A program made the translations under genes and the position numbers. A stretch of 29,883 nucleotides of DNA from a virus. The stretch lies in the IMG/VR virus record IMGVR_UViG_3300017771_000066, positions 1-29,883 of that record; one strand, written 5' to 3'. Below, one piece after another: positions 5,432-17,429 of this stretch (position 1 is its first letter; every line of letters begins with the position of its first letter). The notes below the pieces were generated by a model. That model saw only the letters and a list, made by a program, of their open reading frames with translations. It was not told where the DNA came from and did no database searches.

Positions 5432-6535
5432 ATGGCATCGACATACACACCTTTAGGAATTGAACTTCAAGCAACTGGTGAAAACGCCGGTACGTGGGGG
5501 ACAAAAACTAATACTAACTTACAAATTATCGAACAAGTATCTGGTGGATTCACACAGCAATCAATAGCTGGTGGTGCACAAACAACTACTTTATCAGTTT
5601 CTGATGGTTCAACTGGAGCTGTTCTATCTCACAGAATGATAGAATTTACTGGTTCAATTACAGGAAACCAAGTAGTAACAATTCCATTAGACGTTCAAAC
5701 TTTTTATTTTTTAAGAAACTCAACATCAGGTGCATACACAGTACAATTTAAATATGTATCTGGATCAGGAGATTCTATTACTTTCTCTGCAACAGATAAG
5801 GGTGATGCCGTTATATTTGCTGCAGCAGATGATGGAACTAACCCTAATATTGTAACAATCAATACAGGTATTAAATCAGTTGTTGAAGATACTACACCTC
5901 AGTTAGGTGGTAATTTAGATACTAATTCACACAACGTTGACATTGATGATGCACACGGAATTAGAGATGAAAACGGAAATGAACAAATTGTTTTTCAAAC
6001 AACAGCATCAGCAGTAAACCAAATAGATATAACTAACGCAGCAACAGGTAATGCACCAAGCATAGCTGCAACTGGTGGAGATACTAATATTGATTTCAGT
6101 CTTGCTGGAAAAGGTTTAGGAAGAGTAGCTTTAGGTGCTGGTAGTGTACAACAGTTAACAGAAAAAATTACAGTTACTGCTACTGCAGCTACAGGAACAA
6201 TTAACTTTGACGTAATTACACAACCGGTTTTATATTATACATCTGCATCAACTGGTAACTACACTCTAAATATTAGAGGAGATGGTTCAAATGCTTTAAA
6301 TGCAATTATGGACACAGGTGAAGCATTGACTATTGTACATTTAGTTACAAACACAGGTACACCATATTATAACAACGCAGTTACAATTGATGGATCAAGT
6401 GTAACACCAGAGTGGCAAGGTGGTTCAGCACCTTCAGCTGGAAACGCTAACTCTATAGATTCTTACACTTACACTATCATTAAGACTGGTGATGCTGCTT
6501 TCACAGCAATAGCATCTCAAACGCAGTTTGCGTAA
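5432..6535 (+). CDS. Tail fibre protein
   Basis: The 367-aa protein starts with a widespread marine-phage tail-fibre N-terminus (YTPLGIELQATGENAGTWGT). A Thr/Ser/Val-rich beta region follows, with a VEDTTPQLGGNLDTNSH motif near residue 150, which occurs in many fibre shafts. The C-terminal half is beta-rich with no enzymatic motif. AGGAGAA precedes the start. The fibre probably forms trimers and contributes to host recognition, together with the glycine-rich protein immediately downstream. Confidence 0.75.
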   Translation: MASTYTPLGIELQATGENAGTWGTKTNTNLQIIEQVSGGFTQQSIAGGAQTTTLSVSDGSTGAVLSHRMIEFTGSITGNQVVTIPLDVQTFYFLRNSTSGAYTVQFKYVSGSGDSITFSATDKGDAVIFAAADDGTNPNIVTINTGIKSVVEDTTPQLGGNLDTNSHNVDIDDAHGIRDENGNEQIVFQTTASAVNQIDITNAATGNAPSIAATGGDTNIDFSLAGKGLGRVALGAGSVQQLTEKITVTATAATGTINFDVITQPVLYYTSASTGNYTLNIRGDGSNALNAIMDTGEALTIVHLVTNTGTPYYNNAVTIDGSSVTPEWQGGSAPSAGNANSIDSYTYTIIKTGDAAFTAIASQTQFA

Positions 6536-6554
6536 TAAAGTAGGAGGATAAGAC

Positions 6555-7277
6555 ATGCCATTATTAGGAACAAGAGCCGCAGGTTCAGTATACGGATACG
6601 GACGTGGAGGCGGACGAGGACCATATGCAATTGAATATATGGTTGCGGCCGGTGGTGGCGGCGGAGGAGCGACATCGGGAGCCGGAGGAGGCGCGGGAGG
6701 ACTACAAGTTTTTTCTGACGTTGACGTAGCTCCAGATACCCCTTACTCAATTACAATAGGAAGTGGTGGATCAGGAGGATCCAACGCTGTTGGAGGTTCA
6801 GGATCTAATTCTTCTTTTGGACCACAGTCATCAACTGCTGGAGGAAGAGGAGCAAATTCAAATTCTAGAAATGGAAGTCCAGGTGGATCTGGCGGAGGAT
6901 CGGGATCTGCTGGGGGAGGATCTGCAGGATCTGGAATATCAGGTCAAGGAAATTCTGGTGCACAAGGAGCAGGTGGAGGAAAAGGCGGCGGTGCCGGTTA
7001 TCAATCTCCTGGTCCAGGATACACATACCCAATCAATAGTGGATTTTATTCACGAGGTGGTGGATATGGTAACAACACAGGTTATAACCCACAACCAGCT
7101 AACTCGGCACATGGTGGCCCGGGAAGAGGCGCTGGAGGAACGGGTGGATCAGCCGGTTCAGGTATTGTAATTGTTTCTTATGATGGAACAACACAAGTAG
7201 GAACAGGTGGATCGGTTTCAACAGGTGGTGGACGAACAATTCACACATTTACTTCTAGTGGAGAGTTTGTTTCATAA
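6555..7277 (+). CDS. Glycine-rich adhesin-like tail tip protein
   Basis: The 240-aa protein is dominated by Gly, Ser, Ala and Asn, with long Gly runs (YMVAAGGGGGGATSG, then many GGSGG-type stretches). It ends in a short beta segment (GSGIVIVSYDG ... RTIHTFTSSGEF). This architecture resembles glycine-rich phage tail proteins, including fibre-tip adhesins that form polyglycine sheets. Local GC content is higher than its neighbours because of the GGN/GCN codons, which explains the apparent open frame on the shifted plus frame. AGGAGG lies 9 bases before the start, and the stop overlaps the next ATG. A receptor-binding role is inferred. Confidence 0.7.
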   Translation: MPLLGTRAAGSVYGYGRGGGRGPYAIEYMVAAGGGGGGATSGAGGGAGGLQVFSDVDVAPDTPYSITIGSGGSGGSNAVGGSGSNSSFGPQSSTAGGRGANSNSRNGSPGGSGGGSGSAGGGSAGSGISGQGNSGAQGAGGGKGGGAGYQSPGPGYTYPINSGFYSRGGGYGNNTGYNPQPANSAHGGPGRGAGGTGGSAGSGIVIVSYDGTTQVGTGGSVSTGGGRTIHTFTSSGEFVS

Positions 7278-7762
7278 TGGCACATTTTGCAGAAATAAAA
7301 CAATCTGATAATAAGGTTTTAAGAGTTGTTGTTTTAGATAACGCTGACATAGACGCTAATGGTGGTGACTATTCAGAAAGTGCTGAACAATACGTAGCAA
7401 ACAAAATACCTAACGACCCAGGTTATGATGGAGAATACCCAGCAACATATTGGAAACAAACATCATATAACAACAATGCAAGATACAACTATGCAACCGT
7501 AGATGGCACTTGGGATAATGCTAATCAAGCTTTTATAGACCCACAACCTTTTGATTCATGGACTCTAAGTGCTAATTTTTTATGGGAGCCACCTGTGGTT
7601 TACCCTACATCTGCTGAAATTGATGGTGTTGAAATTCAATTAATATGGAATGAAGCCGATCAAAAATGGCAGTGTTACAAAGATCAAGACCCTTTTCCTA
7701 TGTATGACTGGAATGCTGTTGACCTTGAATGGACAGCAACAGGCGAAAACTACTCAGTTTAA
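7277..7762 (+). CDS. Distal tail/fibre-associated protein, 161 aa
   Basis: It belongs to a recognisable marine phage type: an N-terminal MAHFAEI with a strand-rich VLRVVVLDNADID, a W-x-QTSYNNNAR-x-NYA block, then a Trp/Pro-rich C-terminus (FIDPQPFDSW, WEPPVVYP, W near residues 130 and 145). Such proteins accompany fibre genes in cyanophages and other marine phages and are thought to be structural. It is coupled to the glycine-rich gene (TAATGG) and is the last gene before the accessory oxygenase module. A near-consensus promoter begins at its stop codon. Confidence 0.65.
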   Translation: MAHFAEIKQSDNKVLRVVVLDNADIDANGGDYSESAEQYVANKIPNDPGYDGEYPATYWKQTSYNNNARYNYATVDGTWDNANQAFIDPQPFDSWTLSANFLWEPPVVYPTSAEIDGVEIQLIWNEADQKWQCYKDQDPFPMYDWNAVDLEWTATGENYSV

Positions 7763-7797
7763 TTGACTAAATAAAACCATTTGCTATAATATGGCAG
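7763..7797 (+). promoter_or_regulatory. Near-consensus extended -10 sigma70 promoter of the oxygenase module
   Basis: TTGACT (7763-7768), a 16-base spacer that ends in the extended-10 TGC, and TATAAT (7785-7790). The predicted start of transcription is at 7797 or 7798, which is the ATG of the first oxygenase gene. No Shine-Dalgarno sequence precedes this ATG, so a leaderless message is predicted. The promoter begins right after the stop codon of the tail gene. Confidence 0.8.
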
Positions 7798-8406
7798 ATG
7801 TTTACGAAAGAAATATACTACTACTTTAAGAATGCTTTACCCCCTAGATTATGTGAAGACATAATTAGATTTGGTAATGAGTCTAGTAAAGAAGTAGGAG
7901 TCATTGGTATAGAACAAGGTAGAAAAAATGCTATCAGAAAGCTAACCAAAAAAGAAAAAGCAGAGCCTAGAAAAATGAGAAAGTCTACTATTGCATGGTT
8001 AGATGATCCTTGGATATACAAAGAAATTCAACCTTATGTAGAGTTAGCTAATCAACAAGCTGGTTGGAATTTTGATTTAACAACAGTAGAAAAAATACAG
8101 TTTACTGAGTATCGTCCAGGTCAATTTTATAATTATCATCAAGACAATTTTCATAATGAAGGCTTAACAAGAAAAATATCTATGACTGTTAATCTAAGTA
8201 AAGATAGTGACTATGAAGGTGGAGATCTAGTCTTTAAAACAATTGACAGACAAAATCATAATATTATAGAAATAACAGATAAAGAGTTCAGACATCAAGG
8301 AACCCTGTGTGTATTCCCTTCTTTTGAAGTACACAAAGTATCACCAGTTACAAAAGGTGTAAGGTATTCTTTGGTACTATGGACGTTAGGAGAAAAGTTC
8401 AGATGA
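7798..8406 (+). CDS. 2-oxoglutarate/Fe(II)-dependent oxygenase (PKHD/prolyl-hydroxylase-type)
   Basis: The 202-aa protein has the complete set of residues for a prolyl-4-hydroxylase-like (PKHD) dioxygenase. His114 and Asp116 (NYHQDN) and His179 (EVHKVSP) are the predicted iron ligands, and Arg189 (GVRYSLVLW) is the predicted 2-oxoglutarate anchor. The sequence EGGDLVF before the distal His is also typical. These enzymes hydroxylate a substrate while turning 2-oxoglutarate into succinate and CO2. The substrate cannot be read from the sequence. It is the first gene of the module, directly at the promoter and without a Shine-Dalgarno site, and it overlaps the next gene by ATGA. Confidence 0.85.
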   Translation: MFTKEIYYYFKNALPPRLCEDIIRFGNESSKEVGVIGIEQGRKNAIRKLTKKEKAEPRKMRKSTIAWLDDPWIYKEIQPYVELANQQAGWNFDLTTVEKIQFTEYRPGQFYNYHQDNFHNEGLTRKISMTVNLSKDSDYEGGDLVFKTIDRQNHNIIEITDKEFRHQGTLCVFPSFEVHKVSPVTKGVRYSLVLWTLGEKFR

Positions 8407-8942
8407 AAGAAACAAAGTTTACAGAAATTGCATTAGTGCAAAATATTAAATTAAATACTAAAGCTATCGCTAGTGCGATTAATAAGACACCCTCATCATC
8501 TATTTTAGATGATACTAGATCCGTTACAAAGACAGATGTTGATGTAGCTGATTATTCTCAGAAGCCATACGGCATGGAGTTTTTTAAAAAAGTAAAATCA
8601 TCTATACGAGTATTTGCTAAAAAATATAATCATGCAGAGTTACGAGTTACTAACTATTGTTTTATTCGTATGAAAAAAGAAGATCAAGTAGACTACCATA
8701 GTTCTTTTGAATCTAACTTTGTAGGTATTTTTTTATTAGAAAAATCTGAAAAAGATCATCATGTTGTATTTTTTAATAATGAAAAAGCAAAAGATGTTAA
8801 GGTCAATATGAAACCTGGTGATCTATTATTATTTCCTGCTCATCTATTAAGAAAGTTTCCAAATTTAAAAACAAATAAAATGTACACTTATATAGTATTT
8901 GATTTTCATTTAGATAAACCAAGAATGTATGACGAAGAATAG
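8403..8942 (+). CDS. Degenerate 2OG-oxygenase-fold protein
   Basis: The ATG at 8403, overlapping the upstream TGA (ATGA), is preferred over an ATG at 8379 because every junction nearby is of this overlapping type. The 179-aa protein follows the cluster's oxygenase layout: an RVTNYCFIRM strand, an expected metal motif at DYHSSFESNFVGIFLL, then MKPGDLLLFPAHLLRKF and a final YTYIVFDFHL strand. The key residues have changed, however. His99 is followed by Ser101 rather than Asp or His, the distal His position holds Arg150, and no Arg is present for the co-substrate. It may be a pseudo-enzyme, a partner for another oxygenase, or a binding protein. Confidence 0.65.
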   Translation: MKETKFTEIALVQNIKLNTKAIASAINKTPSSSILDDTRSVTKTDVDVADYSQKPYGMEFFKKVKSSIRVFAKKYNHAELRVTNYCFIRMKKEDQVDYHSSFESNFVGIFLLEKSEKDHHVVFFNNEKAKDVKVNMKPGDLLLFPAHLLRKFPNLKTNKMYTYIVFDFHLDKPRMYDEE

Positions 8943-9546
8943 TTTTGAAAAAGAAGGTTTTCTAGTAATTAAGAAAGCAATCTCCACAGAATTAGCTAAG
9001 TTTTGTTTTGATTACTTTAACTTAAAAAGAAAGGTAACATCTAAACTCTTTGAAGACAGAGAGATATCTCCTTATACTAAATTTTTAGGACACTGGGCAG
9101 ATCAACAAGTTCCTAAAACATACTCACATTATTCAGATTTAGTTATGGAAACTCTTTTATTAAAATGTAGAAAGATATTAGAGAAAGAAACTAAATTAAA
9201 ATTAATTGAAAATTACTCTTACGCAAGGATCTATAAAAAGTTTGATACTTTGTTCAGACATAAAGATAGACCTGAATGTGAAATATCTTGCACCATGAAT
9301 TTAGGAGGCGACCCTTGGGCTATATATGTAAAGAATAAAAAACAACATAAGATAATGTTAGCTCCAGGTGATCTAATTATCTATAGAGGCTGTGATCTAG
9401 AGCACTGGAGAGATGTGTTTACTGGTGATAACTGCACACAAGTTTTTCTACACTATAGTCCTAAAAATAAAAAAGACATAAATAAGACAAAATATGATGG
9501 TAGACCTTTCATAGGATTACCTGAATTTTATAAAGGCAAAAAATGA
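8929..9546 (+). CDS. 2OG/Fe(II)-dependent oxygenase-like protein (HxD type)
   Basis: The 205-aa protein has an N-terminal FEKEGFLVIKKAIS segment that is a usual start of phytanoyl-CoA-type and phage 2OG oxygenases. Predicted iron ligands are His111 and Asp113 (FRHKDRPE) and His159 (DLEHWRD). The segment between them contains CTMNLGGDPW and LAPGDLIIYRG, the expected core strands. The usual Arg about ten residues after the distal His is not clear (NCTQVFLHY), so co-substrate binding may differ. It overlaps the previous gene by 14 bases and the carbamoyltransferase gene by ATGA, so they are probably made together. Confidence 0.8.
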   Translation: MTKNSFEKEGFLVIKKAISTELAKFCFDYFNLKRKVTSKLFEDREISPYTKFLGHWADQQVPKTYSHYSDLVMETLLLKCRKILEKETKLKLIENYSYARIYKKFDTLFRHKDRPECEISCTMNLGGDPWAIYVKNKKQHKIMLAPGDLIIYRGCDLEHWRDVFTGDNCTQVFLHYSPKNKKDINKTKYDGRPFIGLPEFYKGKK

Positions 9547-10961
9547 TTTCGCTGTATATTCACTCTAGTCACGATGGATCCGTGACTTGCATAAAAGATA
9601 AACGTATATTGTTTCATCACCAGATAGATAGATTTAATAAATTCAAACACACCTCTATGCCTCATCTTGCTTTCTTTAAAAAACTTTTAGAACTAAATCA
9701 AAAAATAGACAAGGTTGTATTTACGTTTTTTATAAAAGATAACGCAACTGTCATTTGGGAAAAGTACCTAAAACGATTAAGAATAATTGATAAGTCAACA
9801 GAAGTTATTTATGTTATTGACAAACACCATATCTATCACGCATCGTGTGCTAAACTTTTTCACCCCTACGCAGATTACTTTTTAGTTTGGGACAGAGAAG
9901 GTATGACTAACAAAAATAACGAAACAGAACAAGAGACCGTGTATAACAATAAGTTTACTAAAATATATTCTAATGTAAGAAAAGGTGATGGGTCCAATAT
10001 TGGTTTGGGCAGAAGGTATGATGCAGCTACCATAGCCTGTGGTTTTAATGATTTTGAAGAAGGTAAGACAATGGCACTAGCACAATACAAAAGACCGGGT
10101 GCTGCTTTCTTTGAACAGAGAAGGTTGGAAAAAAAGAGTCTAGTTTTATTACAAACATTAGAGATGTTACATTTTAAAAAAGGAGACACTGTTTGCTTAA
10201 CAGGAGGAGTTACACAAAACGTAATTAATAATTCTAATTTAAAAAATAAATTAAAAGATATTAAGATTGTAGCAGACCCTTTCAATGGTGACTTCGGTAT
10301 ATCTTTAGGCGCTGCTGCCTACCATGAAAACTTACATAAAATTTATATGCCAATTAAAAGTATATATACAGGTCTAGAAACTAAAATAGATATTAGTAGA
10401 TTTGATAAATACAATAAAAAGAAAGTTGAGTACAAAGAAGTTTGTGATGTGTTACAAAAAGAACCTGTTGCTATCTTTCAATCTAAATCTGAACAAGGTC
10501 AAAGAGGTTTAGGAAACCGATCATTACTATTAGATATAAATGCTAAAGATGCTATTAAAAAAATAAACGCAATAAAAAAGAGAGAATGGTTTAGACCCTT
10601 TGCTTGTTCTATTTATGAAAGAGATGCTTCGACTTGGTTTGATACTAAAGGTGAATTATCTCCTTATATGATGTTTACATACAAATCAAAAAAACCAAAG
10701 CTTACTAAAAACGTTTGTTGTGTAAACAACACGAGTAGAATACAAACAGTAAATCAATATTCAAACTTTGGTCTGACTTGTTTACTAAGAACAAATAAAA
10801 AATTTTACAACAGACCTTTGTTATTAAACACTAGTTTAAATCTACCTGGCCACACTTTAGTAGAAACCATAGATGATCTTTTATATATGTTTGAAACAAC
10901 ACCTTTGAACTATATTTATTTTCCAGAAGAACACACACTAATAAGTAAAAATGATATTTAA
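9543..10961 (+). CDS. NodU/TobZ-family O-carbamoyltransferase
   Basis: The 472-aa protein has both parts of the NodU/TobZ/HypF-C carbamoyltransferases. The N-terminal Kae1-like domain carries HHIYHASCA (95-103), LTGGVTQNV (219-227) and DPFNGDFGISLGAA (245-258), which bind the metal and the carbamoyl-adenylate. The C-terminal domain carries GQRGLGNRS (319-327), REWFRPFA (347-354), RIQTV (399-403) and NTSLNLPG (429-436). These enzymes use carbamoyl phosphate and ATP to put a carbamoyl group on a hydroxyl. At 472 residues it is shorter than typical members (about 550-600). Its partner genes are oxygenases that could create the hydroxyl. The substrate (DNA base, glycan, protein or metabolite) is unknown. 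Confidence 0.9.
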   Translation: MISLYIHSSHDGSVTCIKDKRILFHHQIDRFNKFKHTSMPHLAFFKKLLELNQKIDKVVFTFFIKDNATVIWEKYLKRLRIIDKSTEVIYVIDKHHIYHASCAKLFHPYADYFLVWDREGMTNKNNETEQETVYNNKFTKIYSNVRKGDGSNIGLGRRYDAATIACGFNDFEEGKTMALAQYKRPGAAFFEQRRLEKKSLVLLQTLEMLHFKKGDTVCLTGGVTQNVINNSNLKNKLKDIKIVADPFNGDFGISLGAAAYHENLHKIYMPIKSIYTGLETKIDISRFDKYNKKKVEYKEVCDVLQKEPVAIFQSKSEQGQRGLGNRSLLLDINAKDAIKKINAIKKREWFRPFACSIYERDASTWFDTKGELSPYMMFTYKSKKPKLTKNVCCVNNTSRIQTVNQYSNFGLTCLLRTNKKFYNRPLLLNTSLNLPGHTLVETIDDLLYMFETTPLNYIYFPEEHTLISKNDI

Positions 10962-11445
10962 AACAAAAGTAAAAGAACACAGTTCGATAAAAGATAAGCT
11001 AGTAAAAGCAATAGAAAATGCTGAAGGAGAAGCATATGAGTCTATTGAAAAAACTGACTGGCATTTACAAAATGTACCAAGAGAGTACATGCATATAGCA
11101 GTGCCGATACTTAAACCCTATATACGAGAGCTAATAAAACATTTGTACAAAGAACACCATGATATAATAAAAGCTAATCTAAGTAATTCTTGGTATCAGA
11201 TATATAAGAAAAACTCTCAACATACTTGGCATACACATACTAAAACTCAATTAGCTAACGTGTATCTTATAGAGTTACCTGAAAAGAAATATGCTACAAA
11301 ATTTTTAAACCATAAAACAGTTAATCTAGAAGAGGGCGATATACTGACTTTTCCATCGTGGTATCTACATTCTTCACCTATTATTAAATCAAATAAAAGA
11401 AAAATAATTATTGCATATAACTTAGATATGGAGTGCTTAATATGA
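10951..11445 (+). CDS. 2OG/Fe(II) oxygenase-fold protein (HxH type)
   Basis: The 164-aa protein is close in layout to the TIGR02466-type putative 2OG-Fe(II) oxygenases: SWYQIYKKNSQHTWHTHTK, then NLEEGDILTFPSWYLHSSP, then KRKIIIAYNL. The predicted metal residues are His94 and His96 (WHTH) and His140, and Arg150 is the likely 2-oxoglutarate anchor. Note that the second ligand is His, not the usual Asp. It overlaps the carbamoyltransferase by 11 bases and the next gene by ATGA. Activity is predicted from conserved residues only. Confidence 0.8.
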   Translation: MIFKTKVKEHSSIKDKLVKAIENAEGEAYESIEKTDWHLQNVPREYMHIAVPILKPYIRELIKHLYKEHHDIIKANLSNSWYQIYKKNSQHTWHTHTKTQLANVYLIELPEKKYATKFLNHKTVNLEEGDILTFPSWYLHSSPIIKSNKRKIIIAYNLDMECLI

Positions 11446-12104
11446 TGTGGCCAACTATCTGTATAGATAACTTCTTTAATAATCCTAAACAAGTTTTAGA
11501 ATATTCAAAGACTTTAAAATATACACCAGCTGAGAAAGGTAACTGGCCAGGTGTAAGATCAAAAGCTATACATGAGATAGACAACGATTTCTATACTCAC
11601 ATAGCAACTAAAATGATAGCAGCATTATACCCTAACGAGTGGCAAGATATAGGTTGGTTAGCTAATAGTTATTTTCAAAAGATAGATTCTAGATGGAGAG
11701 GACCAGGTTGGGTACATAAAGATGTTCATCAACAGTTTTCATCTATTATTTATTTAAGTGGCGATACTAGTTGTGGCACTTCTTTGTATAAAGAAAACAC
11801 ACATGAAACAGTCCCTCTAGTAAACAATATGAAGACGTCTTCTAATTTAAAACCGTCTAAGATGAAGACTGCAGAATATAAAAAAGAATTAGAAAAACAT
11901 AACAATAAGTTTACAAAAACAGTTTCGTTTAACTCTGAAATAAATAGATGTATTATGTTTGATTCTTATCAATACCATGCAGTAGACAATTTTAATAAAG
12001 ACGATGATAATGAGAGAGTAACTATAATAACTTTTTTCAATAGTATTTTTAGACATGATGGTAAACCTTTGAATCCACATGCCGGGGAGAGTTCTAGAAT
12101 ATGA
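11442..12104 (+). CDS. DUF6445-like 2OG/Fe(II) oxygenase
   Basis: I chose the ATG at 11442, which overlaps the upstream TGA as in the rest of the module, over an upstream GTG at 11433. The 220-aa protein has the DUF6445 pattern: an N-terminal CIDNFFNNPKQVLEYS, then WVHKDVHQQFSSIIYLSGD, a large insert, and CIMFDSYQYHAVDNF followed by NERVTIITFF. Predicted iron ligands are His92, Asp94 and His179, with Arg192 as the co-substrate anchor. In phages this family is of unknown substrate. The insert of about 55 residues (118-170) between the strands is Lys/Asn-rich and may hold the substrate lid. Confidence 0.8.
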   Translation: MMWPTICIDNFFNNPKQVLEYSKTLKYTPAEKGNWPGVRSKAIHEIDNDFYTHIATKMIAALYPNEWQDIGWLANSYFQKIDSRWRGPGWVHKDVHQQFSSIIYLSGDTSCGTSLYKENTHETVPLVNNMKTSSNLKPSKMKTAEYKKELEKHNNKFTKTVSFNSEINRCIMFDSYQYHAVDNFNKDDDNERVTIITFFNSIFRHDGKPLNPHAGESSRI

Positions 12105-12664
12105 ATCTAACATACTGGTTTCCAACTGTACTAGGAGAATCAACTATGCCTAATGCAGACAAAGAATATAAAAAACTAAAACCACACATAGAGAAGATTG
12201 TAAAAAAATCTGGTAAATGTTTTAATTACTACCCTATTCACAAAGATAAAAAATTTAAAAACATAAATGACTTTGTTTTAAAAGAAACAACAGAGTATGC
12301 TAAAGCACACAGCTTTGATGCACCCACAATACAAGAGTCATGGTTTAATAACTATAAACCTGGAGACATTAACGATCCACATACACACGCAGGTTCGCAT
12401 CTAACTGCAGTATATTATTTAGTAGGTGAAAAAGATGATTCAGCTTTATTGATATACAGTCCAGTTCCGACAGACATGTCTAACCCTAGTAAAAAAACAG
12501 TCACTGATCCACACAATAGAAGCAATCCTTTGACATCAGAAACATGTATCATAAAACCATCTAATGGGTTCTTGTGCATCTTCAGAAGTTTTATTACTCA
12601 CCAGGTCCCATTAAAAGTAAATAAATCACCAAGGATATCTTTAACCTACACATTCAATGTTTAA
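12101..12664 (+). CDS. TIGR02466-like putative 2OG/Fe(II) oxygenase (HxH type)
   Basis: The 187-aa protein begins with the usual family opening (LTYWFPTVLGES) and has the core ESWFNNYKPGDINDPHTHAG, a YYLVG strand, and FRSFITHQVPLK followed by SPRISLTYTFNV. Predicted metal residues are His94 and His96 (HTH) and His167; Arg178 is the probable 2-oxoglutarate anchor. It is joined to the upstream gene by ATGA and overlaps the next by 8 bases. It is complete for its family, so probably active. The substrate is unknown. Confidence 0.85.
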   Translation: MNLTYWFPTVLGESTMPNADKEYKKLKPHIEKIVKKSGKCFNYYPIHKDKKFKNINDFVLKETTEYAKAHSFDAPTIQESWFNNYKPGDINDPHTHAGSHLTAVYYLVGEKDDSALLIYSPVPTDMSNPSKKTVTDPHNRSNPLTSETCIIKPSNGFLCIFRSFITHQVPLKVNKSPRISLTYTFNV

Positions 12665-12956
12665 ACATTTTACAAAACATTTAAAGAGTGTTCGATATCC
12701 CAAGAAACAGGAAACATGGGACGTATCAGGTATACTAGGAAACGAAAGATATAACTTTGATATAAGAAAACTAGATGAACCACAGAAATTTACGACTGCA
12801 ACTAAAGCTACTAAGCTGGTGTTTGATCTACCTACTAAATTTGTTATTGTAGATTCACAAGAACTACATGCTTACATATTTAAAAATAAGATAAACTATC
12901 TTATACTAGATGACATAGTAAAAGAACTAGAATGGAATATAATATTAGATAAATGA
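12657..12956 (+). CDS. Small unknown protein in the oxygenase operon, 99 aa
   Basis: The gene overlaps both neighbours (8 bases upstream, ATGA downstream) and has no Shine-Dalgarno site, so it belongs to the module. The protein starts with a basic stretch (FKHFTKHLKSVRYPKK), followed by a mixed region with hydrophobic beta strands (ATKLVFDLPTKFVIVDSQEL) and a C-terminal helix (DDIVKELEWNIILDK). No oxygenase metal motif or membrane segment is seen. It could be an accessory or specificity subunit for a neighbouring enzyme. I do not recognise the family. Confidence 0.65.
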   Translation: MFKHFTKHLKSVRYPKKQETWDVSGILGNERYNFDIRKLDEPQKFTTATKATKLVFDLPTKFVIVDSQELHAYIFKNKINYLILDDIVKELEWNIILDK

Positions 12957-13468
12957 TTAAGTTAAATAAATGTATAAAAAGTAAAGTATTAAAGTCCTTC
13001 TTTTATCTAGAAGGTAACATAAAAATAAACAGTCAGTATTTTATTGAGAAAATAAAACAAGGGTGTAGTCAAGAAGACAACTTAAATGGCCAGACTAATA
13101 TTAAAGGTAATCAAACTTCATGGAAATATTTTAATGATGACCCTGCATTTTTAAATGCAATAGATGAAATAATTACTTGTTTAGATAAAAATGTAGACCT
13201 ACCTTCATACGAGCTTAAAGACTCTTGGGGTTTTAATCTAGGATATGGGGGTAAAACAGAGGAACACAACCACATACCACACCTATGGTCTGGTGCACTG
13301 TATCTAAATAGCCATAACCAAACCTTAGATTTTAATGAGATAAAAAGAAAAGTTAAACCGGAACCGGGGAACTTTGTTTTGTTCTCAGCTTTTTTAAAAC
13401 ACAAGTGTAATCAGAATAGAAGTAAAGATGTTAAGTGGGGAATTAGCTTTAATTTAAGTCCAAGATAA
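12953..13468 (+). CDS. 2OG/Fe(II) oxygenase-fold protein (HxH type, altered co-substrate residue)
   Basis: The 171-aa protein has the expected core: SWGFNLGYGGKTEEHNHIPH, a SGALYLN strand, PEPGNFVLFSAFLKHKCNQN and VKWGISFNL. Predicted metal residues are His105, His107 and His150. The usual Arg in the last strand is absent; Lys161 may take its place. It is the last gene before an internal promoter; only 13 bases separate it from the next start, and those bases contain TATAAT. Activity is less certain than for the neighbours because the anchor residue differs. Confidence 0.75.
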   Translation: MIKLNKCIKSKVLKSFFYLEGNIKINSQYFIEKIKQGCSQEDNLNGQTNIKGNQTSWKYFNDDPAFLNAIDEIITCLDKNVDLPSYELKDSWGFNLGYGGKTEEHNHIPHLWSGALYLNSHNQTLDFNEIKRKVKPEPGNFVLFSAFLKHKCNQNRSKDVKWGISFNLSPR

Positions 13469-13481
13469 GATATAATAAATT
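13448..13481 (+). promoter_or_regulatory. Internal promoter of the second half of the oxygenase module (probably leaderless)
   Basis: TATAAT (13471-13476) is a perfect -10 element, with a weak -35 (TTTAAT, 13448-13453) at 17 bases. The next ATG begins 6 bases after the -10, where transcription would start. There is no Shine-Dalgarno site between the -10 and the ATG. This is also the only junction in the module where the genes do not overlap. Confidence 0.55.
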
Positions 13482-14159
13482 ATGTTTAGAAAGAAAATAA
13501 CGATACAGTATAAGGACCCGTTTGATTATAAGATAATTAAAGATATGTTTAAGGTCATTCCTAAAAACTATCCTCCTTACTTTGGTGCAATACCTAAGAC
13601 AATGTTTAATCCTTTTACGGGACATGCAAGACCAGATCAAAAAACAATAAAGAGTTGTTCAGGTTTTATAAACTTATACAAAAGATCTATCTTAGTATCT
13701 TCTCCTTTTGATATTTATTTAGAGTTTGATGAGAATAAAATAATAACAGAAGAGATAGGAAAAACAGGTTGGAAGATAACTACTCAACAAAATAACGCAC
13801 AGTTATTAAATTATGCAAACAGTAAAAACTATAAATTTTTAATAAAACTAGAACTACCTATCTATTTAAAAAGTGATGCATCAATAGTTATGTTAGACTC
13901 TTTCTATCATTTTAATAAATACGAAATTATACCAGGTATAATTAATAAGAAGTATGAGTCGATAATATCTTTTTTTATGCCTGTAAAAAAACGACAGACA
14001 GAACTATATATAAAGCAAGGAGACCCTTTGTTTTTAATAGTGCCTATGTGTGAAGATAAAATAAAACTTAAGATAAAAAAGAATAATAACATACCTACAC
14101 AAAACACAACACTTACTTTCTCTTCTTTAAAAGAATTTGTAATGGATAAACTTACATGA
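13482..14159 (+). CDS. Unknown protein in the oxygenase module, 225 aa
   Basis: The protein is rich in Lys, Ile and beta-strand-like segments and has no clear 2OG oxygenase motif. A central motif (KTIKSCSGFINLYKRSILV, then SPFDIYLEFDENK, then GWKITTQQNNAQLLNY) resembles a family of phage proteins of unknown function that I know only from their pattern (a conserved Ser-x-Lys/Arg-x-Cys-Pro/Ser-x-Phe and a following Trp/Phe-Asp-Ile strand). Beta strands with alternating Lys and hydrophobics follow, ending in a charged tail. It starts directly at the internal promoter and overlaps the next oxygenase by ATGA. A binding or substrate-presenting role is possible but unproved. Confidence 0.6.
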   Translation: MFRKKITIQYKDPFDYKIIKDMFKVIPKNYPPYFGAIPKTMFNPFTGHARPDQKTIKSCSGFINLYKRSILVSSPFDIYLEFDENKIITEEIGKTGWKITTQQNNAQLLNYANSKNYKFLIKLELPIYLKSDASIVMLDSFYHFNKYEIIPGIINKKYESIISFFMPVKKRQTELYIKQGDPLFLIVPMCEDKIKLKIKKNNNIPTQNTTLTFSSLKEFVMDKLT

Positions 14160-14632
14160 TAAAAATTCAAAAGAATTTTTTAGATACAGATGTATTACAA
14201 AATATAAACAATGCAGTAATGCAGACTACCTTTCCTTGGTATTATTCCGGTATTACAAACGCAGAAGATAAGAACAAGCAGTTCTACCATACCTTTTATC
14301 ACAACAATCATATTAACAGTGAATACTATGACTTAGTTAGACCTATATTAATTAAACTAAAGCCAGTAGTGATTATGAGAATTAAATTAAACTTATTGTT
14401 AAAGACACCTAAAATTATAGAACATGATGATCATACTGATGTAGACTCTGAAAGTATTACTTCATCTATACTTTATTTAAATACCAATAATGGTTATACT
14501 AGATTTAAAAATAGAAAGATAATATCAGAGGAAAACAAGTTAGTTACTTTTCCTTCAGCTGTAAAACATCATGGGACGACATGTACTGATGCAGATGAAA
14601 GACTGGTATTAAATATAATGTATGTCAGATAA
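14156..14632 (+). CDS. 2OG/Fe(II) oxygenase (HxD type, phage family)
   Basis: The 158-aa protein has a full set of expected residues: EHDDHTDVDSESI (His93 and Asp95 predicted as ligands), a SILYLNTNNGYTRF strand, then LVTFPSAVKHHGTTCTDADER with His138 as distal ligand and Arg149 as 2-oxoglutarate anchor. The HxG after the distal His followed by Asp and Arg is common in phage members of this family. ATGA overlap with the upstream gene, and an 11-base overlap with the next, place it in the second transcription unit of the module. Confidence 0.85.
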   Translation: MIKIQKNFLDTDVLQNINNAVMQTTFPWYYSGITNAEDKNKQFYHTFYHNNHINSEYYDLVRPILIKLKPVVIMRIKLNLLLKTPKIIEHDDHTDVDSESITSSILYLNTNNGYTRFKNRKIISEENKLVTFPSAVKHHGTTCTDADERLVLNIMYVR

Positions 14633-15209
14633 AAAAATAAACTACGAATACTTTTACTTTGGACCTTTTCTATATAGAGTAAAATTATTAAACAAAGAAA
14701 TAGATCAGATAAAAAAACTTTGTACGCAAAAGAAAGATATACGAAAGACTTTAGCTGGTTTAATAAAAAAAGAGTTTGAAGTAGATAGTAAAAAACTATA
14801 CCCAATAATATCACCTTATTTACAAAGCTATATACAAGCAGCTCAGCAACACTGGGGCACTTACCATGGACACAAAACAGAGTTAATAAGTAGTTGGGTT
14901 AATTACATGACTAAGTATGAGTCTAATCCTATTCATGGACATAGCTATGATCTGTCTTTTGTATTATATACAGAGATACCATCTGGATTAAAAAAAGAAG
15001 CTGAAGATACAGTAAGTAATAACACTAAACCTGGTGTTATAAATTTTGTAAATAAATTACAACAACACAGATATGAATTAAATGTTCAGTCTTTTATTCC
15101 AGAAGTTGGAGATATGTTTATTTTTCCAGGCACTTTGTATCATTTTGTCAACAGTTTTCAAAGCGAAGGAGAAAGAGTATCTGTATCTGGCAACGTAAAA
15201 GTGGTTTGA
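14622..15209 (+). CDS. 2OG/Fe(II) oxygenase-fold protein (HxH type)
   Basis: The 195-aa protein resembles the putative 2OG oxygenases related to TIGR02466. The core is SSWVNYMTKYESNPIHGHSY, a LSFVLYTEIP strand, then EVGDMFIFPGTLYHFVNSF and GERVSVSGNVKV. Predicted metal residues are His105, His107 and His174, with Arg185 as the co-substrate anchor. An insert of about 40 residues (120-158) separates the first and second halves. It is the last gene of the module; a promoter follows for the large tail protein. The substrate is unknown. Confidence 0.8.
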   Translation: MSDKKINYEYFYFGPFLYRVKLLNKEIDQIKKLCTQKKDIRKTLAGLIKKEFEVDSKKLYPIISPYLQSYIQAAQQHWGTYHGHKTELISSWVNYMTKYESNPIHGHSYDLSFVLYTEIPSGLKKEAEDTVSNNTKPGVINFVNKLQQHRYELNVQSFIPEVGDMFIFPGTLYHFVNSFQSEGERVSVSGNVKVV

Positions 15210-15242: not shown

Positions 15243-17429
15243 ATGTTACAGAAAATAGGCTTTCAACCAGGTATAAATAAACAAATCACACCCACAGGGG
15301 CAGAAGGCCAGTGGATAGACTGTGATAACGTTAGATTTAGATACGGTATACCTGAGAAAATAGGTGGTTGGAATCAACTAGGACAATTAAATTCAAACGA
15401 ATTAACAGGTGCAGCTAGGGGTTTGCACCATTTTGTAAATACGGCCGGTAGAAGGTATGCTATAATAGGCACTAATAGAATACTATATGCTTTTTCTGGT
15501 AATGTATTTTATGACATACACCCTATAAAAAGCACTACAACTCTTACAAGTGCTTTTACTACTACAAATGGATCAACTTCAGTTACTATAACTTTTTCTA
15601 CAGCTCACAATATAAACCCACAAGATATTGTGTTGTTAGATAATTTCTCATCTATTACTGGTTCTAACTATACTGCTTCTGATTTTGATGATAAAAAATT
15701 TATGGTTACTTCTGTTCCTAGTGGAACAACAATAACTATTACAATGCCATCTGCAGAATCAGGATCTGGTGCAACAGCATCTGGTGGTATTAGAGTACAG
15801 CATTACTATCCAGTTGGAACTCCAGTTCAAGAAAAAGGATTTGGTTGGGGCCTAGGAACTTTTGGTGGTGTAGCTAATGGAGCTGTTACAACTACTTTGG
15901 ATGGTGCAATAGATGCTTCAACAACAACTATAGTATTAACAAATGCATCACAGTTTCCATCTACAGGAACTAATTTCATTTTAATCGGAACAGAGATGAT
16001 ACAATACACGGGTATTAGCACTAACACTTTAACAGGTGTAACTAGAGCAGCTAGAGGAACTACAGCTGCAACTCACAGTGATGGTGTTACTGTTACTAAC
16101 GCTACAGATTATGCAGCATGGAATGAACAAACAGAAGAAGGTCTGGCTTTAGATCCAGGTATGTGGTCATTAGATAATTTTGGAGATAAAGCAATTTGTT
16201 TAATTCATGATGGTGCATGTTTTGAATGGGACTCTAGTGCAGGTAATGCAACAACTACAAGAGCAACAATTATATCGGGTGCACCAACAGCATCAAGACA
16301 CATGGTTGTATCTACACCGGATCGTCACTTAGTTTTCTTTGGAACAGAAACAACTATTGGAGATGCGTCTACACAAGACGATATGTTTATTAGATTCTCT
16401 GATCAAGAAAATATTAATTCGTATACACCTACGGCAACGAACACTGCAGGTACACAAAGACTTGCAGATGGATCTAAAATTATGGGAGCTATAAGAGGTA
16501 GAGATGCAATCTATCTTTGGACTGACACAGCATTATTCACTATGAGATTTGTTGGTCAACCGTTTACATTTGCATTTGCACAAGTAGGCACTAACTGTGG
16601 ACTTGTTGGACAGAATGCATGTGTAGAAGTAGATGGCGCTGCGTATTGGATGTCAGAGAATGGTTTTTTTAGATATGCTGGTAAATTAGAATCGTTACCG
16701 TGTTTAGTAGAAGACCATGTCTATGATGATATAAACTTAGTATCAGGTAATCAAATGGTTTCTGCAGGTGTAAACAATTTGTTTGGTGAGGTTATTTGGT
16801 TTTACCCATCAACAACATCTGACGTTATTGATAAACAAGTAGCTTTTAATTATTTTGATTCTTCCTCAGAAAGACCAGTATGGACTGTTGGAACATTAGC
16901 TAGAACAATGTGGAGAGACTCTGCTGTATTTAATAAACCACATGCAACAGAATATAGTGCAGGCAATGATTCATCGTTTGATGTTGTAGGTAACACGGAA
17001 GGTAGAACTTCATACTATGAACACGAAACAGGGACCGATCAAAATAAAAACGGAACTATAACTGCAGTTACTTCAAACATATCTTCTGGTGATTATGACA
17101 TTACACAAGGAAGAACAATACAAGGTAAGTCTTCTGGCCTTGCAGATTTTAGAGGAGACGGTGAACACCTAATGAAGATAAGAAGATTTGTTCCTGACTT
17201 TATATCACAGACTGGAACAACTAGAGTTACATTACAATTAAAAAATTATCCAAATAGTTCACAAGCTGGTTCACCTCTTGGACCTTTTGATATTACAACA
17301 TCTACAACAAAAGTAGATACAAGAGCTAGGGCTAGAGCAGTTGCATTAAAAATAGAAAACACAGCTGCTGATCAAAGCTGGAAACTAGGAACATTTAGAT
17401 TAGACGTACAACCAGACGGGAGAAGATAA
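15243..17429 (+). CDS. Large beta-rich tail/neck protein (P22 gp10-like stabilisation protein type)
   Basis: The 728-aa protein begins with a common marine podovirus pattern (QKIGFQPGINKQITPTGAEG, then DNVRFRYGIPEKIGGW). This is shared with proteins often annotated as phage stabilisation or tail-needle-neck proteins. Residues about 98-190 form a beta domain that also occurs at 2309. Residues about 218-290 form a further beta domain (LTNASQFPSTGTNFILIGTEM ... TGVTRAARGTTAATH). The rest, with repeated W/G-containing strands such as RHMVVSTPDRHLVFFG, fits a beta-propeller. It is the first gene after the accessory module, driven by its own promoter. Confidence 0.7.
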   Translation: MLQKIGFQPGINKQITPTGAEGQWIDCDNVRFRYGIPEKIGGWNQLGQLNSNELTGAARGLHHFVNTAGRRYAIIGTNRILYAFSGNVFYDIHPIKSTTTLTSAFTTTNGSTSVTITFSTAHNINPQDIVLLDNFSSITGSNYTASDFDDKKFMVTSVPSGTTITITMPSAESGSGATASGGIRVQHYYPVGTPVQEKGFGWGLGTFGGVANGAVTTTLDGAIDASTTTIVLTNASQFPSTGTNFILIGTEMIQYTGISTNTLTGVTRAARGTTAATHSDGVTVTNATDYAAWNEQTEEGLALDPGMWSLDNFGDKAICLIHDGACFEWDSSAGNATTTRATIISGAPTASRHMVVSTPDRHLVFFGTETTIGDASTQDDMFIRFSDQENINSYTPTATNTAGTQRLADGSKIMGAIRGRDAIYLWTDTALFTMRFVGQPFTFAFAQVGTNCGLVGQNACVEVDGAAYWMSENGFFRYAGKLESLPCLVEDHVYDDINLVSGNQMVSAGVNNLFGEVIWFYPSTTSDVIDKQVAFNYFDSSSERPVWTVGTLARTMWRDSAVFNKPHATEYSAGNDSSFDVVGNTEGRTSYYEHETGTDQNKNGTITAVTSNISSGDYDITQGRTIQGKSSGLADFRGDGEHLMKIRRFVPDFISQTGTTRVTLQLKNYPNSSQAGSPLGPFDITTSTTKVDTRARARAVALKIENTAADQSWKLGTFRLDVQPDGRR

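Follow-up and report, generated by a model that had tools for sequence, protein, structure and literature searches.

A 29,883-base viral fragment (IMG/VR virus record IMGVR_UViG_3300017771_000066; "the window" below is this whole stretch) carries the largest example we found of a widespread, hypervariable, fibre-linked enzyme cassette in HTVC023P-type podophages of SAR11, the most abundant bacteria in the ocean. The cassette consists of twelve intact open reading frames on the + strand (g1-g12, 7798-15209), located between fibre genes and the gene for a 728-amino acid (aa) tail protein. It comprises nine genes of 2-oxoglutarate/Fe(II) (2OG) oxygenase-fold families, one NodU/TobZ-type carbamoyltransferase gene (g4), and two further genes, g8 and g10. 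We placed these genes in families using Pfam, PHROGs, solved structures, and one AlphaFold model (g3). In relatives of the window, the enzyme set goes with the type of the neighbouring fibre. We propose that the cassette performs late, fibre-linked tailoring of adhesin proteins and is swapped together with the fibre, a reading to which we give a little under an even chance, with fibre proteins as the putative substrate.

The cassette fills a hypervariable slot beside fibre genes

In gene sequence and gene order, the window corresponds to the virion-gene half of the SAR11 podophages HTVC027P and HTVC023P and of the environmental genome 023Pt_psg01. The tail, helicase, and flanking genes are ordered as in these three genomes, which places the window in the HTVC023P-type group of PMC9599517 (Wittmers et al, 2022). 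All twelve consecutive genes listed in an initial annotation of the sequence are present, and its description of them as overlapping is borne out: at ten of the eleven junctions within the cassette, neighbouring genes share 4-28 nucleotides (nt), the single exception being a 13-nt gap between g9 and g10 (13469-13481). Two contigs near-identical to the window (L002 and L003) contain the same twelve genes, all intact, and the cassette therefore represents a real recurring genome and no assembly accident. We discarded SNP counts against L002, as a single indel displaces the simple coordinate offset. Compared with L005, the ratio of nonsynonymous to synonymous substitution rates (dN/dS) is 0.09-0.26 across g1-g8; for g9-g12 only 38-53% identical homologs were found, giving dN/dS-type ratios of 0.25-0.50 at near-saturated synonymous sites. 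By these measures the cassette genes are intact and appear to be under purifying selection, and the module occurs in many related phages.

We gathered 80 loci using the 728-aa tail gene as bait, which does not select for oxygenases, and 45 of the slots were complete enough to read. Oxygenase-type genes are present in 36 of the 45 (one to nine genes, mean 4.4) in 34 different ordered sets; the survey of this position suggested in the initial annotation recovers such genes in most slots, nearly always with a differing gene set. Every one of the 36 oxygenase-bearing slots includes g1 and 30 of the 36 include g3, and the window slot, with nine oxygenase-fold genes, is the richest found. Over 5993 to 12947 the loci L005 and L006 align to the window with 78% nucleotide identity; the alignment then skips to 15218, so that g9-g12 are missing. 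In HTVC023P, HTVC027P, and 023Pt_psg01, all three complete genomes, all 13 oxygenase-family genes sit in the slot; HTVC023P and HTVC027P, both cultured, carry 3-5 oxygenase genes each.

Two further scans gave a similar picture. Among 76 further loci from a carbamoyltransferase scan, which retains the relatives closest to g4, an oxygenase-type gene lies at most two genes away in 67, a fibre or tail marker at most ten genes away in 66, and a halogenase nearby in ten. Homologs of g3 adjoin another oxygenase gene in 69 of 71 cases, and 70 of 71 have a fibre or tail marker at most eight genes away.

A carbamoyltransferase gene often accompanies the oxygenase genes in the slot, and some loci have genes for flavin tryptophan halogenases (PF04820, 1e-91 to 1e-106) or for sulfotransferases there. 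We observed halogenases inside fibre-adjacent cassettes, often beside a carbamoyltransferase, in L016, L018, L038, L067, L090, L108-L110, L113, L114, L117, L118, L131, and L140, and sulfotransferase-like genes within the cassette or adjoining it in L023, L042, L063, L064, and L076. In L042, a small P-loop gene that weakly matches APS kinase comes after the sulfotransferase-like gene.

Enzyme sets go with fibre type

We sorted the fibres upstream of the slot into five classes: Gly-rich with fib_c (class I), collar (class II), kelch-like (class III), Gly-rich with g10 (class IV), and LamG-like with DUF7483 (class V). Collar, Gly-rich, and DUF7483 are Pfam names, and kelch-like and LamG-like are our reading of the sequence. 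Oxygenase genes were found in 36 of 37 slots without DUF7483 fibres and in 0 of 8 with them (Fisher 4e-8, kinship ignored). In the tail-gene tree we count at least 18 changes of fibre class; class V has at least six separate origins on supported branches, and all six independent DUF7483 contrasts point the same way (sign test, median p 0.031). The set g12-g1-g12-g3 belongs to class III loci, and class II loci have a reversed set, on the opposite strand.

Similar clusters recur in other marine phages. The cyanomyophages S-SSM5, S-CAM8, S-MS29, and P-RSM4 carry a carbamoyltransferase, a 2OG gene, phrog_2954, fib_c, and further 2OG genes beside tail fibres. The families and the position beside tail fibres are as in the window cassette, whereas gene order and strand differ and the carbamoyltransferases fall in a separate clade. 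The pelagimyophage HTVC008M has fib_c, phrog_2954, and four 2OG genes, followed by another 2OG gene and a halogenase. In genome-wide searches, close relatives of g3 are in phage-like contigs and distant ones (31-40%) in bacterial chromosomes.

Nine cassette genes encode predicted oxygenase-fold proteins

By homology, nine cassette genes are assigned to the 2OG/Fe(II) oxygenase superfamily fold, with 2OG turnover as the putative activity of those that keep their metal ligands. The initial annotation had counted nine 2OG oxygenases; all nine fall in 2OG families, and eight keep all three metal-ligand positions, g2 being the exception. Its view that they are no simple tandem expansion also stands, as the nine are split among PF13640, PF13759, DUF6445, phrog_2954, and phrog_274, which rules such an expansion out. 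The HxD/E..H core is not general: in alignments with relatives, g1, g3, g6, and g11 carry HxD..H, and g5, g7, g9, and g12 carry HxH..H. The latter is the usual PF13759 form, as in the solved but uncharacterised structures 2rg4 and 3bvc. Structure-based comparison, which the initial annotation had called for, returns the double-stranded beta-helix oxygenase fold for g3 by AlphaFold and Foldseek and for g1, g7, and g12 by sequence match to solved structures; the fold of g2, g5, g6, g9, and g11 is assigned by family or profile match only.

The two commonest members are g1 and g3. g1 (7798-8406; PF13640, 1.9e-16) is PKHD-like, with an intact HxD..H..R motif (H114, D116, H179, R189), a dN/dS of 0.15, and the PKHD-type hydroxylases 3dkq and PiuC as PDB relatives. 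g3 (8929-9546; phrog_2954, 2e-46) has motif residues H111, D113, H159, and Q171, with H-x-D..H invariant in the homolog alignment, and a dN/dS of 0.09. Its AlphaFold model (predicted local distance difference test, pLDDT, 95.2) matches best by Foldseek to the prolyl-4-hydroxylase of Pseudomonas putida (4iw3 and 4j25, 1e-8), a protein hydroxylase that shares the fold of g3 but only ~12% identity with it. We found no Pfam family match for g3, including PF00762 (ferrochelatase), and ferrochelatase is absent among the 50 structural matches listed for the model.

g2 (8379-8942; phrog_81, 1.7e-12) is 2OG-oxygenase-like and lacks two of the three metal ligands, with H107-S-S and R158 where relatives show H-x-H and H. 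The loss is common to all of its orthologs (L005, L106, and L107; 57-80% identity), and dN/dS is 0.17; g2 is probably a conserved pseudo-oxygenase under purifying selection.

Four genes are of PF13759 type: g5 (10951-11445; 3e-9; H94-x-H96..H140), g7 (12101-12664; 1.8e-15; H94-x-H96..H167), g9 (12953-13468; 2.1e-9; H105-x-H107..H150), and g12 (14622-15209; 5.4e-13; H105-x-H107..H174..R185). g7 also matches TIGR02466 at 2e-14, under that model's cut-off, and has 2rg4 and 3bvc as PDB relatives; the profile of g12 matches the same two structures at 2e-17. g6 (11433-12104) is of DUF6445 type (PF20043, 2.5e-14; PF13759 at threshold), and its H95-x-D97..H182..R195 is invariant in the family alignment. 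g11 (14156-14632; phrog_274, 1e-42) is oxygenase-like and carries H93-x-D95..H138..R149, with H, D, and H invariant in its family alignment. We link g11 to the superfamily because of its hhalign match to the g12 family (92%) and its HxD..H motif; hhalign gave no significant match between g11 and the g3 family. phrog_274 thus looks like an oxygenase family, and we rejected its label "DNA endonuclease V" on the basis of the HxD..H..R motif and the match to the g12 family.

The two remaining genes fall outside these families. g8 (12657-12956; 99 aa) has no Pfam match and recurs in such cassettes, in at least 20 related loci. g10 (13482-14159; phrog_7084, 1.2e-13) is a distant DUF6065 relative and no oxygenase; its homologs match PF19541 weakly, it adjoins fibre genes in class IV loci, and AlphaFold and Foldseek gave a medium-confidence beta fold with only a weak dUTPase-like match. 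We rejected a defence-system identity for the cassette, as the sole PADLOC hits, for g1 and g11, were to a generic 2OG model.

g4 is a predicted O-carbamoyltransferase with conserved active-site residues

g4 (9543-10961) consists of a compact, Kae1-like N-domain and a YrdC-like C-domain (PF16861, 1.6e-38, and PF02543, 2e-12, both over cut-off; PDB profile match 7e-73). Its metal site HxxxH, D, D is kept (H95, H99, D117, D250) and, like R321, R326, R347, R399, and N429 of the C-domain, is invariant in the family alignment; in TobZ these are the catalytic residues. dN/dS against L005 is 0.09. TobZ, GdmN, and NodU have both domains, and their metal-site and C-domain residues align with those of g4, whereas the N-domain of g4 is shorter and its NodU match is far under the NCBI cut-off. 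The initial annotation of g4 as a NodU/TobZ-type carbamoyltransferase is upheld by the Pfam matches and the conserved metal site, and carbamoyl transfer to a hydroxyl group is predicted.

The 5-hydroxymethylcytosine carbamoyltransferase of phages (PMC8670742) is likewise phage-encoded and of the same superfamily; it is accompanied by thymidylate-synthase-type genes, whereas g4 is accompanied by oxygenase-fold genes and fibres. That paper links residues W408, G421, and R423 to DNA substrates, its text not stating which letters are those of DNA enzymes. In our tree, the carbamoyltransferases of pelagiphages group in a clade separate from cyanomyophage and thymidylate-synthase-adjacent ones (rooting is uncertain and branches are long). 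We observed two different carbamoyltransferases in the 63 kb pelagiphage contig G014 (L257 and L258), at two places, each adjoining an oxygenase-type gene. In the cyanophages P-SSM2 and S-CAM1 (L264 and L265), the neighbours of the carbamoyltransferase are tail fibres, heptose/nucleotide-sugar genes, and a cysteine dioxygenase, a gene context that suggests a carbamoylated sugar.

Proposed fibre-protein tailoring and its alternatives

Because several unrelated 2OG-fold families and an intact carbamoyltransferase are kept in many phages, a multi-enzyme modification module is well supported as the predicted function of the cassette. This part of the pathway proposed in the initial annotation holds; its strict order, hydroxylation followed by carbamoylation, is hypothetical. 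Many slots have two to eight oxygenases without a carbamoyltransferase, and some relatives have a carbamoyltransferase without an adjoining oxygenase, so oxygenation and carbamoylation are not obligately paired. Among the targets then offered (phage DNA bases, the adjacent fibres, or a host glycan or metabolite), we favour the fibres because of gene linkage and the coupling of enzyme set to fibre type, and disfavour DNA bases, as the cassette shows no TET/JBP domain and a search of 34 contigs gave no thymidylate synthase. The class-specific enzyme sets, the recurrence of the cluster beside fibres in other marine phages, and the intact genes under purifying selection also speak for the fibres.

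We envisage that the enzymes would be made late, together with virion proteins, and would act on newly synthesised fibre or adhesin proteins. In this scheme the oxygenases, with g1 and g3 as the most frequent members, would introduce hydroxyl groups on residues; g4 would transfer a carbamoyl group to a hydroxyl or thiol, using carbamoyl phosphate and ATP; and g2 would take part without catalysing a reaction. How the fibre folds, how stable it is, or which receptor it recognises would depend on these modifications, and this would account for the joint exchange of enzymes and fibre. Proteins are the substrates of prolyl hydroxylases, and the related carbamoyltransferase HypF modifies a protein cysteine; the matches of the g3 model to protein prolyl-hydroxylases would count for protein tailoring. 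More tentatively, at perhaps one chance in three, marine phages may diversify their adhesins chemically and not just by sequence: swappable hydroxylases, with carbamoyltransferase, halogenase, or sulfotransferase options, would put natural-product-like modifications on tail fibres and would be exchanged with the fibre to change host recognition.

Several observations weigh against a role tied to fibre proteins. The kinship-corrected test of coupling rests on six contrasts only, and linkage on the genome could account for some of the coupling, because neighbouring genes are swapped together; against linkage alone, the same partner genes also occur together outside this slot. A few oxygenase genes lie outside the slot in three larger metagenomic contigs, as do the carbamoyltransferases of some relatives. 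fib_c is present without nearby oxygenases in Bellamy, Melnitz-2, Greip, and CRP-143, and is therefore no strict marker. Small-molecule oxygenases, too, are among the closest structural matches of g3, and some bacterial g3 relatives sit near asparagine synthase or sulfotransferase genes, neighbours that small-molecule or glycan chemistry would fit equally.

The main rival, which we consider unlikely, holds that the enzymes modify the host surface (lipopolysaccharide or a receptor glycan), blocking superinfection or the sticking of progeny to debris. The set would then track the fibre's receptor, and receptor-linked enzymes would go with fibre type too. NodU and TobZ act on sugars, sulfotransferases are present in some cassettes, a glycosyltransferase lies a few kb off in HTVC023P and HTVC027P, and the carbamoyltransferases of P-SSM2 and S-CAM1 keep company with heptose and nucleotide-sugar genes as well as tail fibres. 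In pelagimyophages, glycosyltransferases have been read as modifying the host surface (PMC7029224). However, Pfam and PHROGs searches found no glycosyltransferase or sugar-nucleotide gene among the window cassette genes, and up to nine oxygenases are many for one glycan. Tryptophan halogenases are better suited to aromatic or peptide substrates, and action late in a lytic cycle would leave little time for a change of the surface.

A metabolic (auxiliary) role, published for cyanophages and pelagiphages (PMC3037559, PMC9599517, PMC11561400), strikes us as improbable. On this view the oxygenases would steer nitrogen or iron metabolism by drawing down 2-oxoglutarate or converting host metabolites, but the "ferrochelatase" of the iron hypothesis has an oxygenase fold, a bulk 2OG sink needs no nine divergent enzymes, and the position and fibre coupling are left unexplained. 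We hold it to be quite improbable that the slot is a mere recombination hot spot gathering cargo of no common function, with fibre coupling arising by linked co-transfer. Gene orders are nearly all different, the slot is flanked by conserved genes, and some oxygenases lie elsewhere, as this explanation would have it; yet the cargo is strongly limited to tailoring enzymes, with g1 in every oxygenase-bearing slot and g3 in 30 of 36, and unrelated cyanomyophages have comparable sets next to their fibres.

DNA hypermodification, with oxygenases hydroxylating phage bases and g4 carbamoylating them, has precedent in a phage carbamoyltransferase that makes 5-carbamoyloxymethylcytosine in vitro (PMC8670742). 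In addition, some HTVC023P-type clades carry a thymidylate synthase and a hypermodification enzyme (PMC9599517), and some cyanophage carbamoyltransferases adjoin thymidylate synthase (S-SCSM1) or cytosine methyltransferase (S-SZBM1). We regard it as very improbable here and disfavour it as first choice, given the thymidylate-synthase search and the gene context: thymidylate synthase (PF00303) was found in 0 of 34 relative contigs (most with g4 homologs and most of them fragments, including contigs of 47.8, 52.8, and 63.1 kb), Pfam searches found no TET/JBP-type family among g1-g12 of the window, itself a fragment, the pelagiphage carbamoyltransferases fall in a clade separate from thymidylate-synthase-adjacent ones, and the cassette sits among virion genes, next to the fibres, with a composition that varies with fibre type. 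In S-SCSM1 (L266 6270-10520) the carbamoyltransferase is beside thymidylate synthase, and in S-SZBM1 (L268 4370-8176) it occurs with a cytosine methyltransferase, a 2OG oxygenase, and replication genes; this DNA context makes these two enzymes good candidates for DNA carbamoylation.

Relation to published annotations

Wittmers et al (2022; PMC9599517) described HTVC023P-type pelagiphages with eight non-orthologous 2OG genes co-located with a "ferrochelatase", and interpreted the 2OG genes as auxiliary metabolic genes whose partner inserts iron; the main text of that paper contains neither "carbamoyl" nor "tail fiber". The co-located gene is labelled ferrochelatase there and in PMC11561400 (as phrog_2954), and iron or seasonality arguments were built on the label. 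For g3/phrog_2954 this label is ruled out by the oxygenase fold (pLDDT 95), the HxD..H motif, and the lack of a Pfam match. As phrog_2954 has a 2OG-oxygenase fold, the published iron-metabolism readings rest on a misannotation. "Ferrochelatase" genes of phrog_2954 in pelagiphages and cyanophages include window 8929-9546, L096, L097, L098, L105, and L267.

The phage group is common to the earlier set and the present cassette, which differs in its mixed tailoring enzymes, its link to fibre type, and the oxygenase fold of phrog_2954. A literature search, with most subscription journals outside its scope, found no work on modification of phage receptor-binding proteins by hydroxylases and nothing on ferrochelatase and tail fiber in cyanophages. 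Multiple oxygenase genes in such phages are thus already published, and the fibre coupling, the mixed chemistry, and the oxygenase-fold "ferrochelatase" appear new. Phages that infect SAR11 or marine cyanobacteria commonly carry 2OG-oxygenase genes, which lack an explanation and usually go under the label metabolic. The fibre-type link gives them another, testable role in host recognition, with defined peptides for mass spectrometry, and the published iron interpretation would be corrected. For enzymology, the cassettes would also be a rich source of oxygenases, halogenases, and carbamoyltransferases that are compact and divergent.

Flanking genes and a promoter-like site

Upstream of the cassette on the + strand are fib_b (6555-7277; PF21722, 1e-6; phrog_2295, 3e-19), a Gly-rich fibre/adhesin protein, and the fibre-class marker fib_c (7277-7762; phrog_7759, 5e-28), which is found in cyanophages too. 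fib_c has a conserved Trp/Pro motif, roughly QPxxSWxLxxxxxWxxPxxxP in the window and its relatives, and is a candidate substrate or fibre chaperone. On the other side, the 728-aa tail gene (15243-17429, + strand; phrog_3287, 1e-97), with homologs in HTVC023P and HTVC027P, forms the slot boundary.

We found no promoter at 13468/13482, where the initial annotation had placed one; a sigma70-like site instead lies directly before g1, on the + strand (7763-7790; TTGACT-16-TATAAT with a TG extension, 11/12 consensus). It is the single match to the exact extended -10 pattern in the whole window. The -10 box ends 7 nt ahead of the g1 start codon (window 7763-7798), and transcripts from this promoter would therefore be nearly leaderless. 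Promoter-like sites precede the cassette in a minority of relatives (14 of 98 junctions, loose pattern).

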